From: Opitutaceae bacterium
GTDB taxonomy: Bacteria; Verrucomicrobiota; Verrucomicrobiia; Opitutales; Opitutaceae
Assembly: GCA_027482185.1 (NCBI GenBank)
Contig: JAIXWF010000022.1
Span: 1 to 64,000, forward strand
Direction: 5' to 3'
DNA: 64,000 bases
In this document: one piece after another, positions 4,619 to 64,000 of the stretch
Numbering within the stretch: position 1 is the stretch's first letter
Layout of the letters: the number at the start of each line of letters is the position of its first letter
Notes under the pieces: generated by a model
Seen by the model: only the letters and a program-made list of their open reading frames with translations
What the model was told of the DNA's origin: nothing
Database searches by the model: none
Made by a program: the position numbers and the translations under genes

Positions 4619-6082
4619 TCAGACCACGTCCGGAATAACGTACGGCGGCCGGGGGGCTTCGCGGAGGAGGAAGCGGGCGTGGGCGAGGGCGGCGGGGTTG
4701 TCGGTATCCAGTTTTGCGATGCCGTCGCCGGTAGCGTCGAGGTCGAGCCAGGGGCCGAGTTTGAAGGGTTGGGCGGCGGCATCGATGCCGTGGACGCCGA
4801 GGTGGGCCTGGAGCTCGCGCTGGATGCCTTGGGCGGCGGGGAAATCTTTCAGCGCGGTTTCGATCTTGGCCGGGGCGGCGGCTTTGCCGACGCGGTAGGA
4901 GATGTTGCCGTAGTGGCAGAGGGCGGCGCTGAGGTGGCCGGTCTCGACGGGGGCGGCGAGGTCGGCTTTGCGGCGCGAGCGGACGGCGGCGAAGAAGTTG
5001 GGCACGTGGCCCGCGCCGCCGTCGCCGGTGAACTTCTTGATCACTTTGCCGCTGCGGTCGTAGGCGGTGCCGCCGACGAGACCGGAGAGCGAGCCGCCCT
5101 CGCAGTGGGCGACGACGCCGACGCGCAGGCCGCCGTGCTGGTCCATGAAGTTGACGCCGGGTTTCGCGGGGAGGGCGCGGTGCTCGAAGATGAGCGGGAT
5201 CGACGCGTAGTCGTAGACGGCGACGTGGGTGTTGGGCGTTTCGGCGACATCGTCGATGCCGTAGCGGCCGCCGAAGCTGAGGATGCGGCGGGGCGAGCCG
5301 GCGTGTTTCGCGATGCGGAGGGCGATGTCGAGGACGTGGACGCCGTTGTTGCCGAGCTCGCCGTTGCCGGTGTCCCAGGACCAATGCCAGTCGTAGTGGA
5401 GCTGGTTGCGCTGCAGCGGGGCGACGGGGGCCGGGCCGCAAAAGCGGTCGTAGTCGAGATCGGCCGGGTACCACGGCAGCTTGTGCCCGATGGACGGGCG
5501 CAGGTTGTAGACGACGGCGCGGATGTGGTCGATTTTGCCCAAGCCGCCGCCGTGCAAAAACTGGATCGCTTCCGCGAGGCCGGTCTCGGAGCGGTAGTGC
5601 GTACCCACTTGTACGATACGGTTGTACTTGGTCGCGGCCTCGATCATCTTGCGGCCTTCCCAGACGGTGCGGGACATCGGTTTCTCGACGTAGACGTCCT
5701 TGCCGGCCTGGCAGGCCCATACGGTGAGCAGCGCGTGCCAGTGGTTGCTCGTGACGATCATGACGGCGTCGACGTCGTCGCGCGCGATGAGCGCGCGGGC
5801 ATCGGTGGTCTTGAACGGCGCGGGCCGGTCGGCCGGAATGAGGGCGGCGCCCTGGGCGAGCAGGGCGGGATCGACGTCGCAGAGGGCGGCGATGCGGACG
5901 CCGTCCATCTTCAGGATGTTCTTGAGATGGGGGACGCCCTTGCGGCCGAGGCCGATGAGGCCGAGGCGGATGGCGGAGTTGGCGCCCGCGGGTTGGGCGT
6001 GCACGGAAGGCCGGAAGGCGGACGCGAGGAGGGCGGTACCGGCGGCGAGGGAGGAGCGGCGGAGGAAAGTGCGGCGGTGCAT
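4619..6082 (-). CDS. Tat-exported Gfo/Idh/MocA family oxidoreductase
   Basis: A 487-residue NAD(P)-dependent oxidoreductase-like protein. It starts MHRRTFLRRSSLAAGTALLA, a twin-arginine signal. The Rossmann motif is RLGLIGLGRKGVPHL (about residues 39-53), followed by IAALCDVDPALL. The family signature AGKDVYVEKPMSRTVWEGRK holds the EKP lysine, and HGGGLGKIDHIRAVVYNLRP follows. The WHWSWDTGNGELGNNGVHVLD segment is typical of the secreted subgroup common in Planctomycetes and Verrucomicrobia. Length exceeds that of cytosolic relatives because of the signal and a C-terminal extension. The substrate is probably a sugar or polyol but is not determined by sequence. Confidence 0.9.
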   Translation of the reverse strand: MHRRTFLRRSSLAAGTALLASAFRPSVHAQPAGANSAIRLGLIGLGRKGVPHLKNILKMDGVRIAALCDVDPALLAQGAALIPADRPAPFKTTDARALIARDDVDAVMIVTSNHWHALLTVWACQAGKDVYVEKPMSRTVWEGRKMIEAATKYNRIVQVGTHYRSETGLAEAIQFLHGGGLGKIDHIRAVVYNLRPSIGHKLPWYPADLDYDRFCGPAPVAPLQRNQLHYDWHWSWDTGNGELGNNGVHVLDIALRIAKHAGSPRRILSFGGRYGIDDVAETPNTHVAVYDYASIPLIFEHRALPAKPGVNFMDQHGGLRVGVVAHCEGGSLSGLVGGTAYDRSGKVIKKFTGDGGAGHVPNFFAAVRSRRKADLAAPVETGHLSAALCHYGNISYRVGKAAAPAKIETALKDFPAAQGIQRELQAHLGVHGIDAAAQPFKLGPWLDLDATGDGIAKLDTDNPAALAHARFLLREAPRPPYVIPDVV

Positions 6083-6095
6083 GGGGGAGGGGGGA

Positions 6096-6179
6096 GCGGT
6101 CAGCTGTCAGCGGTCAGCGATCAGCTTGGGCCAGCGGCTGAAGGCTGACCGCTGATAGCTGATAGCTATCGGTGATAGC
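6096..6179. repeat. GGTCAGC-word inverted repeat
   Basis: GGTCAGCTGTCAGCGGTCAG and further words (6096-6125) face an inverse run GCTGACCGCTGATAGCTGAT and more (6143-6179) across a 17-nt spacer. It lies between the Hsp70 stop (6475) and the oxidoreductase start (6082) on the minus strand. Confidence 0.85.
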
Positions 6180-61429: not shown

Positions 61430-61575
61430 GCCGGCCCACCGGGGTGCGGGGATGGCGTCGGGTACGAGGCGTGCGCGGCCTCGCCCGGAGGCCCGGTTTC
61501 CTCTCCGATTGCCTGCGGCCGCCGTCGTCGCTTGGTTCGCCGGGCGCTTCACGCTGTCCGTAGCCCCCCGTTGCC

Positions 61576-62484
61576 ATGACTGTATCTTTCGGCCGTTCCC
61601 TCCTCGCCGTCGCGGTCTGGGCGCTTTCCACCGCGGCGCCGGCGGCGGAGCCGGCGGAGAAAGCGGTTGCGCCGACATGGCCCGACCTCGCGTCCGTGCC
61701 GGCGGATCTCGTCGTGCCCGCGGTTGAATCCGCCGCCCCCGCCCCGGGCCGCCGCGTCTTCGCGACCACGCCCGGCTGGGAAGGCACCGCCGTCCGCCAC
61801 ACCGTCTATCTTCCCGCCGATTGGACCCCGGGGAAAAAATGGCCCGTGCTCGTCGAGTACCCGGGCAACGGCAACTACCGTAACAAATTCGGCGATACGT
61901 CCGACGGCACCCCCGAGGGTTGCCGCCTCGGCTACGGCGCGAGCGGCGGCCGGGGCTTCATCTGGATCGCGTTGCCCTTCGTGGCCGGAACCGGCGCGGC
62001 CCGGACCAACGCCGTCACGTGGTGGGGCGATGTCGCGGAAACGAAACGCTACCTGCTCGCCACGGTGCGCGACGTCGCGGCCCGTTTCGGCGGCGATCCG
62101 GCGCGCGTGATTCTGGCCGGGTTCTCGCGCGGCGCCATCGCGGCCAACTTCATCGGCCTGCACGACGACGAGGTTGCCGGCCTCTGGCGCGGCTTCATCT
62201 GCCACAGCCACTACGACGGCGTCAGCGAACGCTGGCCGTATCCCGACGCCGACCGTGCGTCGGCCTTGGCGCGCCTGCGCCGCCTCGGCGACCGGCCGCA
62301 GTGGATCAGCCACGAGGGCTCCGTAGCCGCGACGGAAACCTGGTTGCGCGGCACGGGCGTGCCGGGACGTTGGACATTCCGCGCGATTCCGTTCCGCAAC
62401 CATTCCCCCGATTGGGTGCTGCGCGATATTCCCGAGCGCCGCGACCTCCGCGCGTGGTTGGCGGAGATTGTAGCCACTCGATAA
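61576..62484 (+). CDS. Secreted alpha/beta hydrolase
   Basis: 302 residues with signal peptide (FGRSLLAVAVWALSTAAPAA). WPVLVEYPGNGNYRNKFGD is the early strand and loop; ILAGFSRGAIAANFIGLHDD holds the nucleophile elbow GxSxG with Ser184; a late His is in FRNHSPDWVLRD. It resembles PHB depolymerase/feruloyl-esterase-type secreted hydrolases. Substrate not predictable. Next gene downstream is the leader peptide of the threonine dehydratase gene. Confidence 0.8.
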   Translation: MTVSFGRSLLAVAVWALSTAAPAAEPAEKAVAPTWPDLASVPADLVVPAVESAAPAPGRRVFATTPGWEGTAVRHTVYLPADWTPGKKWPVLVEYPGNGNYRNKFGDTSDGTPEGCRLGYGASGGRGFIWIALPFVAGTGAARTNAVTWWGDVAETKRYLLATVRDVAARFGGDPARVILAGFSRGAIAANFIGLHDDEVAGLWRGFICHSHYDGVSERWPYPDADRASALARLRRLGDRPQWISHEGSVAATETWLRGTGVPGRWTFRAIPFRNHSPDWVLRDIPERRDLRAWLAEIVATR

Positions 62485-62507
62485 GTCCCGGCGGCCACAG
62501 GTCCGTT

Positions 62508-62542
62508 CTTTCAACCTTCACCTTTCACCTTTCAACTTCCCC
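62508..62542. repeat. TTTCAACC words
   Basis: TTCTTTCAACCTTCACCTTT and CACCTTTCAACTTCC, upstream of the leader peptide. No inverse arm. Confidence 0.75.
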
Positions 62543-62606
62543 CGCACCCGTGACCGACTGCGCGCTCGACAACGTGCGGTCCGGTTGTTCTCTTCCGACC
62601 ATTCCG

Positions 62607-62684
62607 ATGTCCATCCGCGCCATCATTATTGCCGCCATGATTATGATTCGCCTCGAATCAGGGCGGCGGCGCGTGACTGCATAA
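62607..62684 (+). CDS. Isoleucine-rich leader peptide of the threonine dehydratase gene
   Basis: 25-residue peptide starting MSIRAIIIAAMIMIRLE and ending GRRRVTA, TAA stop. Six of its first 14 residues are Ile, three in a row. Ile is the end product of the pathway begun by threonine dehydratase (62765), and a terminator follows 27 nt later. This is the layout of leader-peptide attenuators such as that of the ilvGMEDA operon of enteric bacteria. No Shine-Dalgarno is visible. Confidence 0.75.
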   Translation: MSIRAIIIAAMIMIRLESGRRRVTA

Positions 62685-62746
62685 CGAGAAACCAACAGTC
62701 ACTTTCAACCGAAGCCCTGAGCCGAAAGCTCAGGGCTTTTTGTTTT
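62658..62746 (+). promoter_or_regulatory. Transcription attenuator of the threonine dehydratase gene
   Basis: Three pairings are visible. The terminator is 62712-62746. A pause-type hairpin pairs GTGACTG (62673-62679) with CAGTCAC (62696-62702). TCAGGGC in the leader ORF (62658-62664) is identical to part of the terminator 3' arm and could pair with GCCCTGA (62714-62720) as an antiterminator. A ribosome stalled at the Ile codons would leave TCAGGGC free, giving expression when Ile is scarce. A ribosome at the stop codon would only just uncover TCAGGGC again, so the antiterminator is tentative. Confidence 0.6.
62712..62746 (+). terminator. Rho-independent terminator ahead of threonine dehydratase
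   Basis: AAGCCCTGAGC (62712-62722), 5-nt CGAAA loop, GCTCAGGGCTT (62728-62738): a perfect 11-bp stem, followed by the T-run CTTTTTGTTTT. It is the only classical intrinsic terminator I found in this window. Confidence 0.9.
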
Positions 62747-62764
62747 CCCGAATCGCCTTCCGCC

Positions 62765-63778
62765 ATGAATCCGCTCCCTGTCCCGACCCTCGGTCTTGCC
62801 GCTGTCGCCGCCGCCCGCCGCCGCTTGGCGCACGGGCTCCGGCTCACGCCGTGCGCGCCTGCGCCCGCCCTGACGGAGATTGCCGGAATGGAAATCCGGC
62901 TGAAGCGCGACGACCTCCAGCGCACCGGCTCCTTCAAGGAACGCGGCGCCCGCCACGCGCTGCTCTGCCTTTCGCCCGAGGAACGCGCCCGTGGCGTCGT
63001 TGCCGCTTCCGCGGGCAACCACGCCCTGGGCCTTGCCTACCACGGCGCCCAACTCGGATTGAAGGTGACCGTCGTCGTCCCTGCCAGCGCGCCCGCGGTG
63101 AAACTCGCCCGCTGCCGCAGTCTTGGCGCCGAGGTCGTTGTGTCCGGCGCCACCTTCGCCGCCGCCGAAGCCGAGGCGGCGGAGTTGGTGGCCGCGCGCG
63201 GGGCCACGCTGGTGCATCCCTTCGACGATCTGCGCGTCATCGCCGGCCAAGGCACGCTTGGGCTCGAGGTGCTGGAGCAGGCGCCGGACCTCGACACGAT
63301 CGTCGTGCCGGTCGGCGGTGGCGGCCTGATCGCCGGCGTGGCCACGGCCGTGAAAGCGTTGCGGCCGGACGTACGGGTCGTCGCGGTGGAGCCGGCCCAC
63401 GCCGCGGGCTTTGTCTCCGCCTACCTCGCGGGCGGGCCCGCGCCAGCGGCCTTGGCGCCGACCTTGGCCGACGGCCTCGCCGTCGCGCGCATGGGCGCGA
63501 ACACCTTCGCGCTGGCCGCGCCGCTGATCGACGACCTCGTGACGGTCACCGAGGAGGAACTCGCCCGCGCTATCGCGCTGCTCGCCCGCCGCTGCGGCGC
63601 CGTGGTTGAAGGGGCCGGCGCCGCGGCGCTCGCCGCCGCCGTGGCCGGCAAAGTGCGCGCCCGCTCCGCTGTCCTGGTCGTGAGCGGCCGCAATATCGAC
63701 CCGGCTGCGCACCGCGCCGTACTCGATGGTTGGTCCGATGCCGCCGCCGCAGCGCCACGCCTGGCCCGTGCCGCCTAA
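62765..63778 (+). CDS. ilvA: Threonine dehydratase (PLP-dependent), short form
   Basis: 337 residues. LKRDDLQRTGSFKERGARHA holds the PLP lysine (Lys58) and IVVPVGGGGLIAGVATAVKA the glycine-rich phosphate site; VAASAGNHALGLAY is the family loop. It would convert threonine to 2-oxobutanoate, the first step of isoleucine synthesis. The C-terminal ACT-like regulatory domain of long IlvA is absent, so allosteric feedback may be missing and the leader attenuator could supply the Ile control. A frame open from upstream exists, but it crosses the terminator and was excluded. Confidence 0.9.
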   Translation: MNPLPVPTLGLAAVAAARRRLAHGLRLTPCAPAPALTEIAGMEIRLKRDDLQRTGSFKERGARHALLCLSPEERARGVVAASAGNHALGLAYHGAQLGLKVTVVVPASAPAVKLARCRSLGAEVVVSGATFAAAEAEAAELVAARGATLVHPFDDLRVIAGQGTLGLEVLEQAPDLDTIVVPVGGGGLIAGVATAVKALRPDVRVVAVEPAHAAGFVSAYLAGGPAPAALAPTLADGLAVARMGANTFALAAPLIDDLVTVTEEELARAIALLARRCGAVVEGAGAAALAAAVAGKVRARSAVLVVSGRNIDPAAHRAVLDGWSDAAAAAPRLARAA

Positions 63779-63807
63779 AGCCACGTTACCGCGCCCAACG
63801 GTCGCTG

Positions 63808-63854
63808 TATCCGTCCCATAAGTCCCATAAGTCACATAGGACCCATAGGACCGC
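63808..63854. repeat. CCCATA-word repeat after threonine dehydratase
   Basis: CCGTCCCATAAGTCCCATAA then GTCACATAGGACCCATAGGA words, the same type as 16474-16563. All words share one orientation, so no strong hairpin forms. Confidence 0.8.
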
Positions 63855-63920
63855 TTTCCGCTTACCCCCGGCCCGCCTGCGGTGCGGTTTTTGGCTTTGT
63901 GTCCGGCCCGGCGAGGGCGC

Positions 63921-64000
63921 ATGACGCCCTCTCCCATGGAGCCTTCGTCCCAGCCGCCGCGCGACCCGCGTGATCCCCGCGACCCGCGGGAGCCGCGGCG
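63921..64000 (+). CDS. Start of a gene cut by the window edge
   Basis: An ATG at 63921 opens a frame (MTPSPMEPSSQPPRDPRDPR then DPREPR) that is still open at the window end. Pro/Arg/Asp repeats make it low complexity, and no family can be named. It could be the N-terminal linker of a larger protein. Confidence 0.4.
   Translation, partial: MTPSPMEPSSQPPRDPRDPRDPREPR

Follow-up and report, generated by a model that had tools for sequence, protein, structure and literature searches.

The leader region upstream of a short ilvA gene

The window (the whole 64-kb stretch of DNA analyzed here) contains a gene for a short threonine dehydratase, IlvA, preceded by the parts of a putative attenuator. 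All features lie on the plus strand:

62565–62571, plus strand: CTCGACA, tentative candidate for a −35-like element of the leader promoter
62607–62684, plus strand: 25-codon ORF of the leader peptide, MSIRAIIIAAMIMIRLESGRRRVTA, with Ile codons at positions 3, 6, 7, 8, 12 and 14
62616–62673, plus strand: protector (1:2) hairpin, CGCGCC/GGCGCG, GCCGCC/GGCGGC and TGATTCG/CGAATCA
62646–62648, plus strand: last Ile codon (codon 14), 9 nt 5' of the antiterminator
62658–62664, plus strand: antiterminator strand TCAGGGC, complement of 62714–62720
62673–62702, plus strand: GTGACTG/CAGTCAC, which may form a nested hairpin whose loop contains the stop codon (secondary, optional)
62711–62739, plus strand: intrinsic terminator, 5' arm core GCCCTGAGC at 62714–62722, 3' arm GCTCAGGGC at 62728–62736, T-run from 62737
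62765–63778, plus strand: ilvA, the putative regulated gene, short threonine dehydratase of 337 aa, PALP domain alone, no ACT

The window IlvA belongs to the threonine dehydratase family by similarity, yet it scored below the NCBIfam cut-offs of 25 listed families, and ACT-type NCBIfam models matched it without their C-terminal part. Immediately downstream of ilvA no second gene was apparent; a possible ORF start with PRDPR repeats lies at 63882–64000 and runs off the window. Upstream of the leader, an esterase-like gene (61576–62484) gave weak COesterase and PHA-depolymerase matches below the cut-offs.

The leader ORF opens with ATG at 62607 and ends with TAA at 62684, and it carries six Ile codons among its first 14, as the first-pass annotation of this DNA had reported. 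It thus contains a run of codons for the end product of the pathway in which ilvA (and, in relatives, cimA) is a structural gene. When 1004 start codons opening ORFs of 12–45 codons were examined on both strands of the 64-kb window, more than three Ile in any 12 codons occurred only at three nested starts of the leader ORF, with six. The ATT:ATC ratio was 4:2 in the leader ORF and 54:6 summed over 14 leaders, against 1:7 in ilvA, 4:6 in the esterase gene and 1:46 in a TonB receptor gene; the leader therefore favors what is the minor Ile codon in the three neighboring genes counted. No Shine-Dalgarno-like stretch was visible by eye upstream of the leader ATG. No sigma-70 consensus site was called before the leader and no clear promoter was found there; in an alignment of 14 upstream regions, several columns of the CTCGACA element reached 90% conservation or more.

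The intrinsic terminator, located between the leader and the structural gene, has a stem of 11 Watson–Crick pairs, AAGCCCTGAGC/GCTCAGGGCTT (12 counting one G–T), followed by TTTTTGTTTT, which confirms the earlier description of a perfect 11-bp terminator with a T-run and then ilvA. Four terminators were found in the region against 2.7 expected, a count not unusual in itself; a chance origin is ruled out because of the conservation upstream of ilvA described below, not because of the terminator count. TCAGGGC recurs in the terminator 3' arm and complements GCCCTGA of the 5' arm. It was invariant across 14 aligned leaders of the window's type (type 1, see below), and the 9-nt gap between the last Ile codon and TCAGGGC was kept in 13 of the 14, L032 having Met at codon 14. 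By sequence and folding model, pairing of TCAGGGC with the 5' arm would exclude the terminator, and a ribosome that had moved beyond the control codons would mask it.

The protector hairpin was predicted in most of the 14 type-1 leaders and would conceal TCAGGGC when the ribosome is absent. RNAalifold gave one-sided changes that keep its pairs; the inner helix had changed on both sides once, in L032, and was broken in L040 and L007. The nested hairpin was rejected as a second conserved element, as it beat shuffled spacers (p < 0.05) in just eight of 18 type-1 leaders, the window included.

Conservation of the leader among ilvA genes

Close IlvA relatives were collected from 57 relative genomes, at least 80 loci of a wider contig scan and 250 genomes of the family. 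In a tree of 64 rows, the short ACT-less enzymes formed one clade of 24 (support 99/94). Its neighbor was a clade of 17 (98/95) whose members are longer by about 85 residues at the C-terminus; 15 of them come from the window's family and two from Planctomycetota. Four long enzymes (L011, L017, L129 and L136) had ACT matches below the Pfam cut-off (best E 2e-5 to 1e-4) and passed TIGR01127 (threonine ammonia-lyase, one C-terminal domain). The frame of one short-clade member, L118, extends 84 residues further without an ACT match. In L033 and L115, a single in-frame TAG, real or an assembly error, interrupts an otherwise open short ilvA.

An Ile-rich leader followed by a terminator was found before all 24 ilvA genes of the short clade (18 type 1, five type 2 and one type 3); ortholog upstream regions contained a leader such as MSLRAVIIAAMIMILPESGRRRVTA and the terminator GCCCTGAGC..GCTCAGGGC. 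The search for this leader in relatives that the first-pass annotation had proposed thus bears out its conservation. By contrast, none of the family's 15 scanned sister genes with ACT was preceded by an Ile-rich leader with an ATG start (L017 scanned over only 212 nt upstream); the upstream ORF scan listed ATG starts only, and this negative therefore rests also on model R2 (see below), which found the window leader and none in 42 other loci, the long sister genes and the two Planctomycetota included. More distant short paralogs (37–41% identity) had no leader upstream. An exact-pattern search of 372 genomes of the order found only four, the pattern being too strict.

The three types have differing peptides and a common layout of Ile run, antiterminator 5–11 nt on (spacing determined by hand as 7 nt for L127 and L128), stop codon and terminator. 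Type 1 has the protector hairpin over TCAGGGC, the TCAGGGC/GCCCTGA antiterminator and the terminator. Type 2 (L008, L042, L125, L127 and L128) comprises MTSRNANARAMIIGMIIIRRRPGHGHIA and its kin, with an antiterminator around CCCGGG and the terminator GCCCCGGGC, and type 3 (L043) reads MGMMMIIIIPRAGVRTC with the antiterminator CGCCGGC. The three types thus differ in the antiterminator and, in step with it, in both arms of the terminator. Five of the 18 type-1 leaders (L007, L035, L037, L118 and L124) hold only three Ile codons, their run being interspersed with Met, Val, Leu or Thr.

This pattern bears on three other explanations. The esterase-like gene lies on the same strand, and about 230 nt separate its end at 62484 from the hairpin, so that the hairpin might be a mere terminator of that gene and the Ile-rich ORF accidental. 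However, leader and terminator remain with ilvA even at loci whose upstream sequences appear unrelated on inspection by eye, and three sequence types recur with one layout; we consider this explanation extremely improbable. SGRRRV is invariant in the 14 aligned type-1 leaders, as might be expected if the peptide itself were active, for instance by arresting its own ribosome as a nascent chain or as a small protein, and the ORF did not simply count codons. Yet the invariant codons also make the protector and antiterminator strands, and the peptide ends of the type-2, type-3 and cimA leaders differ, what they have in common being the Ile codons and the antiterminator, which leaves an acting peptide very unlikely. 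A riboswitch, T-box or protein-bound attenuator that reads Ile directly, the ORF being incidental, would likewise show a terminator–antiterminator pair ahead of an amino-acid gene. This is scarcely credible where start, stop, Ile codons and frame are all conserved, and no Rfam family scored above its gathering score in 61500–64000; the search of that interval for a T-box, riboswitch or Rfam leader gave one sub-threshold match, on the minus strand (E 1.2).

Leaders at cimA and their number per genome

A covariance model (R1) built from 14 type-1 leaders matched 68 of the 250 family genomes at E 0.01, and eight of 20 fetched weaker matches were Ile-rich leaders ahead of another gene, that for citramalate synthase (cimA). 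The one cimA product tested (L151) scored 688 bits against TIGR00977 (citramalate synthase, cut-off 450) and keeps the LeuA allosteric domain. The second R1 matches fetched in G000 (C2), G030, G367 and G453 (L162, L163, L164 and L167) had no Ile-rich ORF and were rejected as leaders, as were L153, L158 and L165; weaker second matches, beyond those fetched, occurred in G006, G070, G085, G341 and G415.

A cimA gene was detected at E 1e-150 in 200 of the family's 250 genomes. We sampled 108 upstream regions (the 30 nearest the query and 78 hand-picked), of which 107 were scored, one being without the motif. A leader with a terminator was found at 40 of the 107 cimA regions, at 0 of 20 in short-ilvA genomes versus 40 of 87 elsewhere (Fisher p 4.6e-5, uncorrected for relatedness or sample choice). 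The 20 short-ilvA genomes, among which G012 had only 40 nt upstream of cimA, span 11 genera, and the 40 cimA-leader genomes span 14; the comparison leaves out the short-ilvA genomes G414, and G006, G455 and G498 (no cimA at E 1e-150). Model R2 gave no match in the 20 cimA regions of short-ilvA genomes and added three cimA leaders that the script had missed (G252, G343 and G470). The cimA of the window genome (L198) had no leader by either script or R2. In the 35 of 40 cimA leaders that were modelled, the antiterminator begins 6–15 nt, mostly 8, past the last Ile codon. Judging from their like layout, the cimA leaders of other Opitutaceae probably do the same job as those of ilvA.

R2 was built from 21 cimA and four type-2 ilvA leaders, with no type 1. 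At E 1e-4 it matched 83 of the 250 family genomes, each exactly once, a count that includes the training leaders and that weak second copies could escape, about 13 candidates being scored per genome. The matches lay at cimA in 58 cases (54 assigned by coordinates, four by reading), at short ilvA in 23 (by coordinates), at a decayed ilvA in one (G449) and at an ilvA with two regulatory domains in one (G536). The window leader was the sole match of its genome at E 1e-4 (E 4.8e-10). A search of the order with R2 gave 14 matches among 273 genomes, all in the window's family. R2 also found E. coli ilvL (36.5 bits), and it missed L043 (type 3).

At the DNA level, type-2 ilvA and cimA leaders matched with a best E of 3e-19 (76% over about 120 nt); the score was 80.6 bits, and none of 50 codon-shuffled sets exceeded 31.9. 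In the leader tree the type-2 ilvA leaders adjoin cimA_L216 with weak support. This match and tree position suggest that ilvA and cimA, which are unrelated genes, probably came to bear the switch by copying or transfer between them. We do not claim the type-1 leaders, to which the window belongs, as proven homologs of the cimA leaders; R2 gave them 40–60 bits against 36.5 for ilvL, which is presumably convergent. We hold it an even chance that Opitutaceae carry one Ile attenuator cassette per genome, sitting in the course of evolution at one of two enzymes, citramalate synthase (pyruvate route) or an IlvA paralog whose ACT domain was lost (threonine route), that the site of Ile control has thereby shifted between two non-homologous entry enzymes, and that a transcriptional sensor has replaced allostery in the ACT-less branch.

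Several unusual loci were also seen. L148 (G449:C42, leader at 5984–6116, minus strand) is an ilvA copy with a shortened match and SSRERG for SFKERG, the Lys of which we take to be the PLP lysine; its GTG-start leader reads LLLVVVLII, with most Ile codons lost and the antiterminator and terminator kept, and gene and sensor appear to be in joint decay. L150 (G220:C115:11153-11276) is an apparent type-1 leader remnant with the stop lost and the terminator broken; the longest frame downstream is not ilvA-like, and the cimA of G220 (L277) had no leader by script. In L282 (G536:C47:2515-2645), the leader MRTASARLLATTTIIISPIPG and a terminator precede an IlvA of the biosynthetic kind (TIGR01124, 800 bits) that has two regulatory domains at its C-terminus, and the leader has a Thr-Ile run, as if substrate and product were both sensed. 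L149 (G523:C48) and L155 (G515:C104) are Ile-containing leaders with a terminator; the 110-aa protein behind the L149 leader bears a weak resemblance to IlvM, the small subunit of acetolactate synthase (18.6 bits, cut-off 68), and may be a further target. In L154 (G379:C6:2081723-2081861), a leader-like ORF, MKQNTATTIIMMTKANSPWAGGTRRND, and a terminator precede a 122-aa ORF that neither Pfam nor NCBIfam models matched at E 0.01.

Antiterminator pairing, proposed mechanism and known systems

Covariation was assessed in 65 leaders aligned to R2 (ilvA, cimA, one decayed, G536 and E. coli ilvL). The antiterminator was paired in 99.5% of 384 cells, and both sides had changed in 38 antiterminator cells against 6.7 in shuffles, a signal that dropped when the helix was slid. 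This covariation supports the helix but alone is no proof, because the alignment was fitted to the structure, changes are inherited within clades and CCCGGG is self-complementary. Against codon-shuffled ORFs, the helix gave p = 0.02 in the window, and it beat the shuffles (p < 0.05) in 14 of 18 type-1, one of six type-2/3 and 14 of 35 cimA leaders.

In the ribosome model, RNA from 13 nt past the P-site onward was free to fold. With the A-site at Ile14, predicted capture of the window 5' arm by TCAGGGC was 0.98; the score is zero by construction from codon 16, most of TCAGGGC being covered. In the six type-2/3 leaders, modelled without this zero rule, capture fell from 0.72–0.92 at the Ile run to 0.04–0.21 at the stop. 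The drop came one to four codons past the Ile run in these six and in three of four further type-1 leaders; in L123 (type 1), capture fell only from 0.65 to 0.25 and then rose again at codons 16–17 (0.66 at codon 17). Capture of the cimA arm dropped by more than 0.3 from the last Ile to the stop in 24 of 35 leaders and by 0.3 or less in 11. The E. coli ilvL control, with its terminator arm set by hand, gave 0.81 before the last Ile, 0.61 at it and 0.05 at the stop, with a bump of 0.51 at codon 24. The model favored the terminator nearly always in full-length RNA at equilibrium, so antitermination would have to be kinetic. The ribosome-free nascent state varied by species (predicted antiterminator 0.02–1.00).

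The joint change of antiterminator and terminator, along with the ribosome-position folding, supports the earlier suggestion that TCAGGGC, duplicated in the 3' arm, could act as an antiterminator, and with the conservation it argues for the proposed system of leader peptide, antiterminator and terminator as a whole. We give a probability of about 0.93 to a ribosome-mediated transcription attenuator that senses the charging of isoleucine tRNA. From the parts, their spacing, conservation and covariation, we infer transcription, stalling and a kinetic choice of fold as follows. Transcription would begin shortly before 62607, with a ribosome following. When Ile is ample, the ribosome would pass the Ile codons and cover 62658–62664 and the end of the ORF, the RNA at 62711–62739 would fold as the terminator, and ilvA would not be made. 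When Ile is scarce, the ribosome would stall at codons 6–14, opening the protector hairpin and leaving TCAGGGC just outside; TCAGGGC could then bind GCCCTGA while the 3' arm is still to be synthesized, and the polymerase would read through into ilvA.

The first-pass annotation also held that the leader replaces the missing allosteric domain. One part of this stands: the leader tracks the absence of ACT in this enzyme (24 of 24 ACT-less versus 0 of 15 ACT-bearing genes). Against replacement in general, the window genome has another, leaderless ilvA whose product bears an ACT domain (L136), G536 has its leader before an IlvA with two regulatory domains, and the L151 CimA keeps its LeuA allosteric domain. 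The window genome encodes a further paralog as well (L137), and in the set of 57 relative genomes six of eight short-IlvA genomes also carry the long form, by length and score. Because a leaderless ACT-bearing IlvA is present beside the short form, the switch would add an ilvA copy induced by Ile starvation and not be the only control of the cell.

The two branches offer a natural experiment, in which the ACT-less branch has the attenuator throughout our sample and the ACT-bearing sister branch has none. In other genomes a homologous switch lies on the alternative entry enzyme, cimA, and it was not seen on both. The spread of an attenuator between genes and RNA control standing in for allostery thereby become testable in cultured Opitutaceae.

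The mechanism itself is classical, here brought to a phylum without amino-acid cases in the literature searched. The first-pass annotation knew of no such attenuation for ilvA in Verrucomicrobia; in the open-licence literature searched, we found neither it nor this leader described, nor any amino-acid leader peptide from the phylum, and neither the phylum, the targets nor the one-per-genome pattern was reported there. The main text of two noncoding-RNA surveys and of one terminator survey contained neither "verrucomicrob" nor "opitut", and a paper on Akkermansia genomes refers to the leader peptide of erm(B), an attenuator of drug resistance.

The closest layout is that of the E. coli ilvL/ilvXGMEDA attenuator, with its Ile-rich leader, an antiterminator soon after the last Ile, a stop, an intrinsic terminator and branched-chain genes behind, and the capture profile in our simulation was the same except for the bump at codon 24. 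Unlike the window leader, E. coli ilvL also has Leu and Val codons and governs an operon, whereas the window-type run consists of Ile with some Met or Val and occurs in Verrucomicrobiota; the resemblance is likely convergent. The Corynebacterium ilvB-II uORF is also rich in Ile, Leu and Val and is followed by an antiterminator and a terminator before a branched-chain gene, but gene, phylum and sequence all differ here (PMC11109978). The hisS/hisZ attenuators of bacilli use His codons and precede other genes, and they resemble the present case as leader peptides in a phylum not previously known for one: before 2010, amino-acid leader peptides were known to the authors only in Proteobacteria and Actinobacteria, and they discuss the swapping of sensing systems (PMC2965389).
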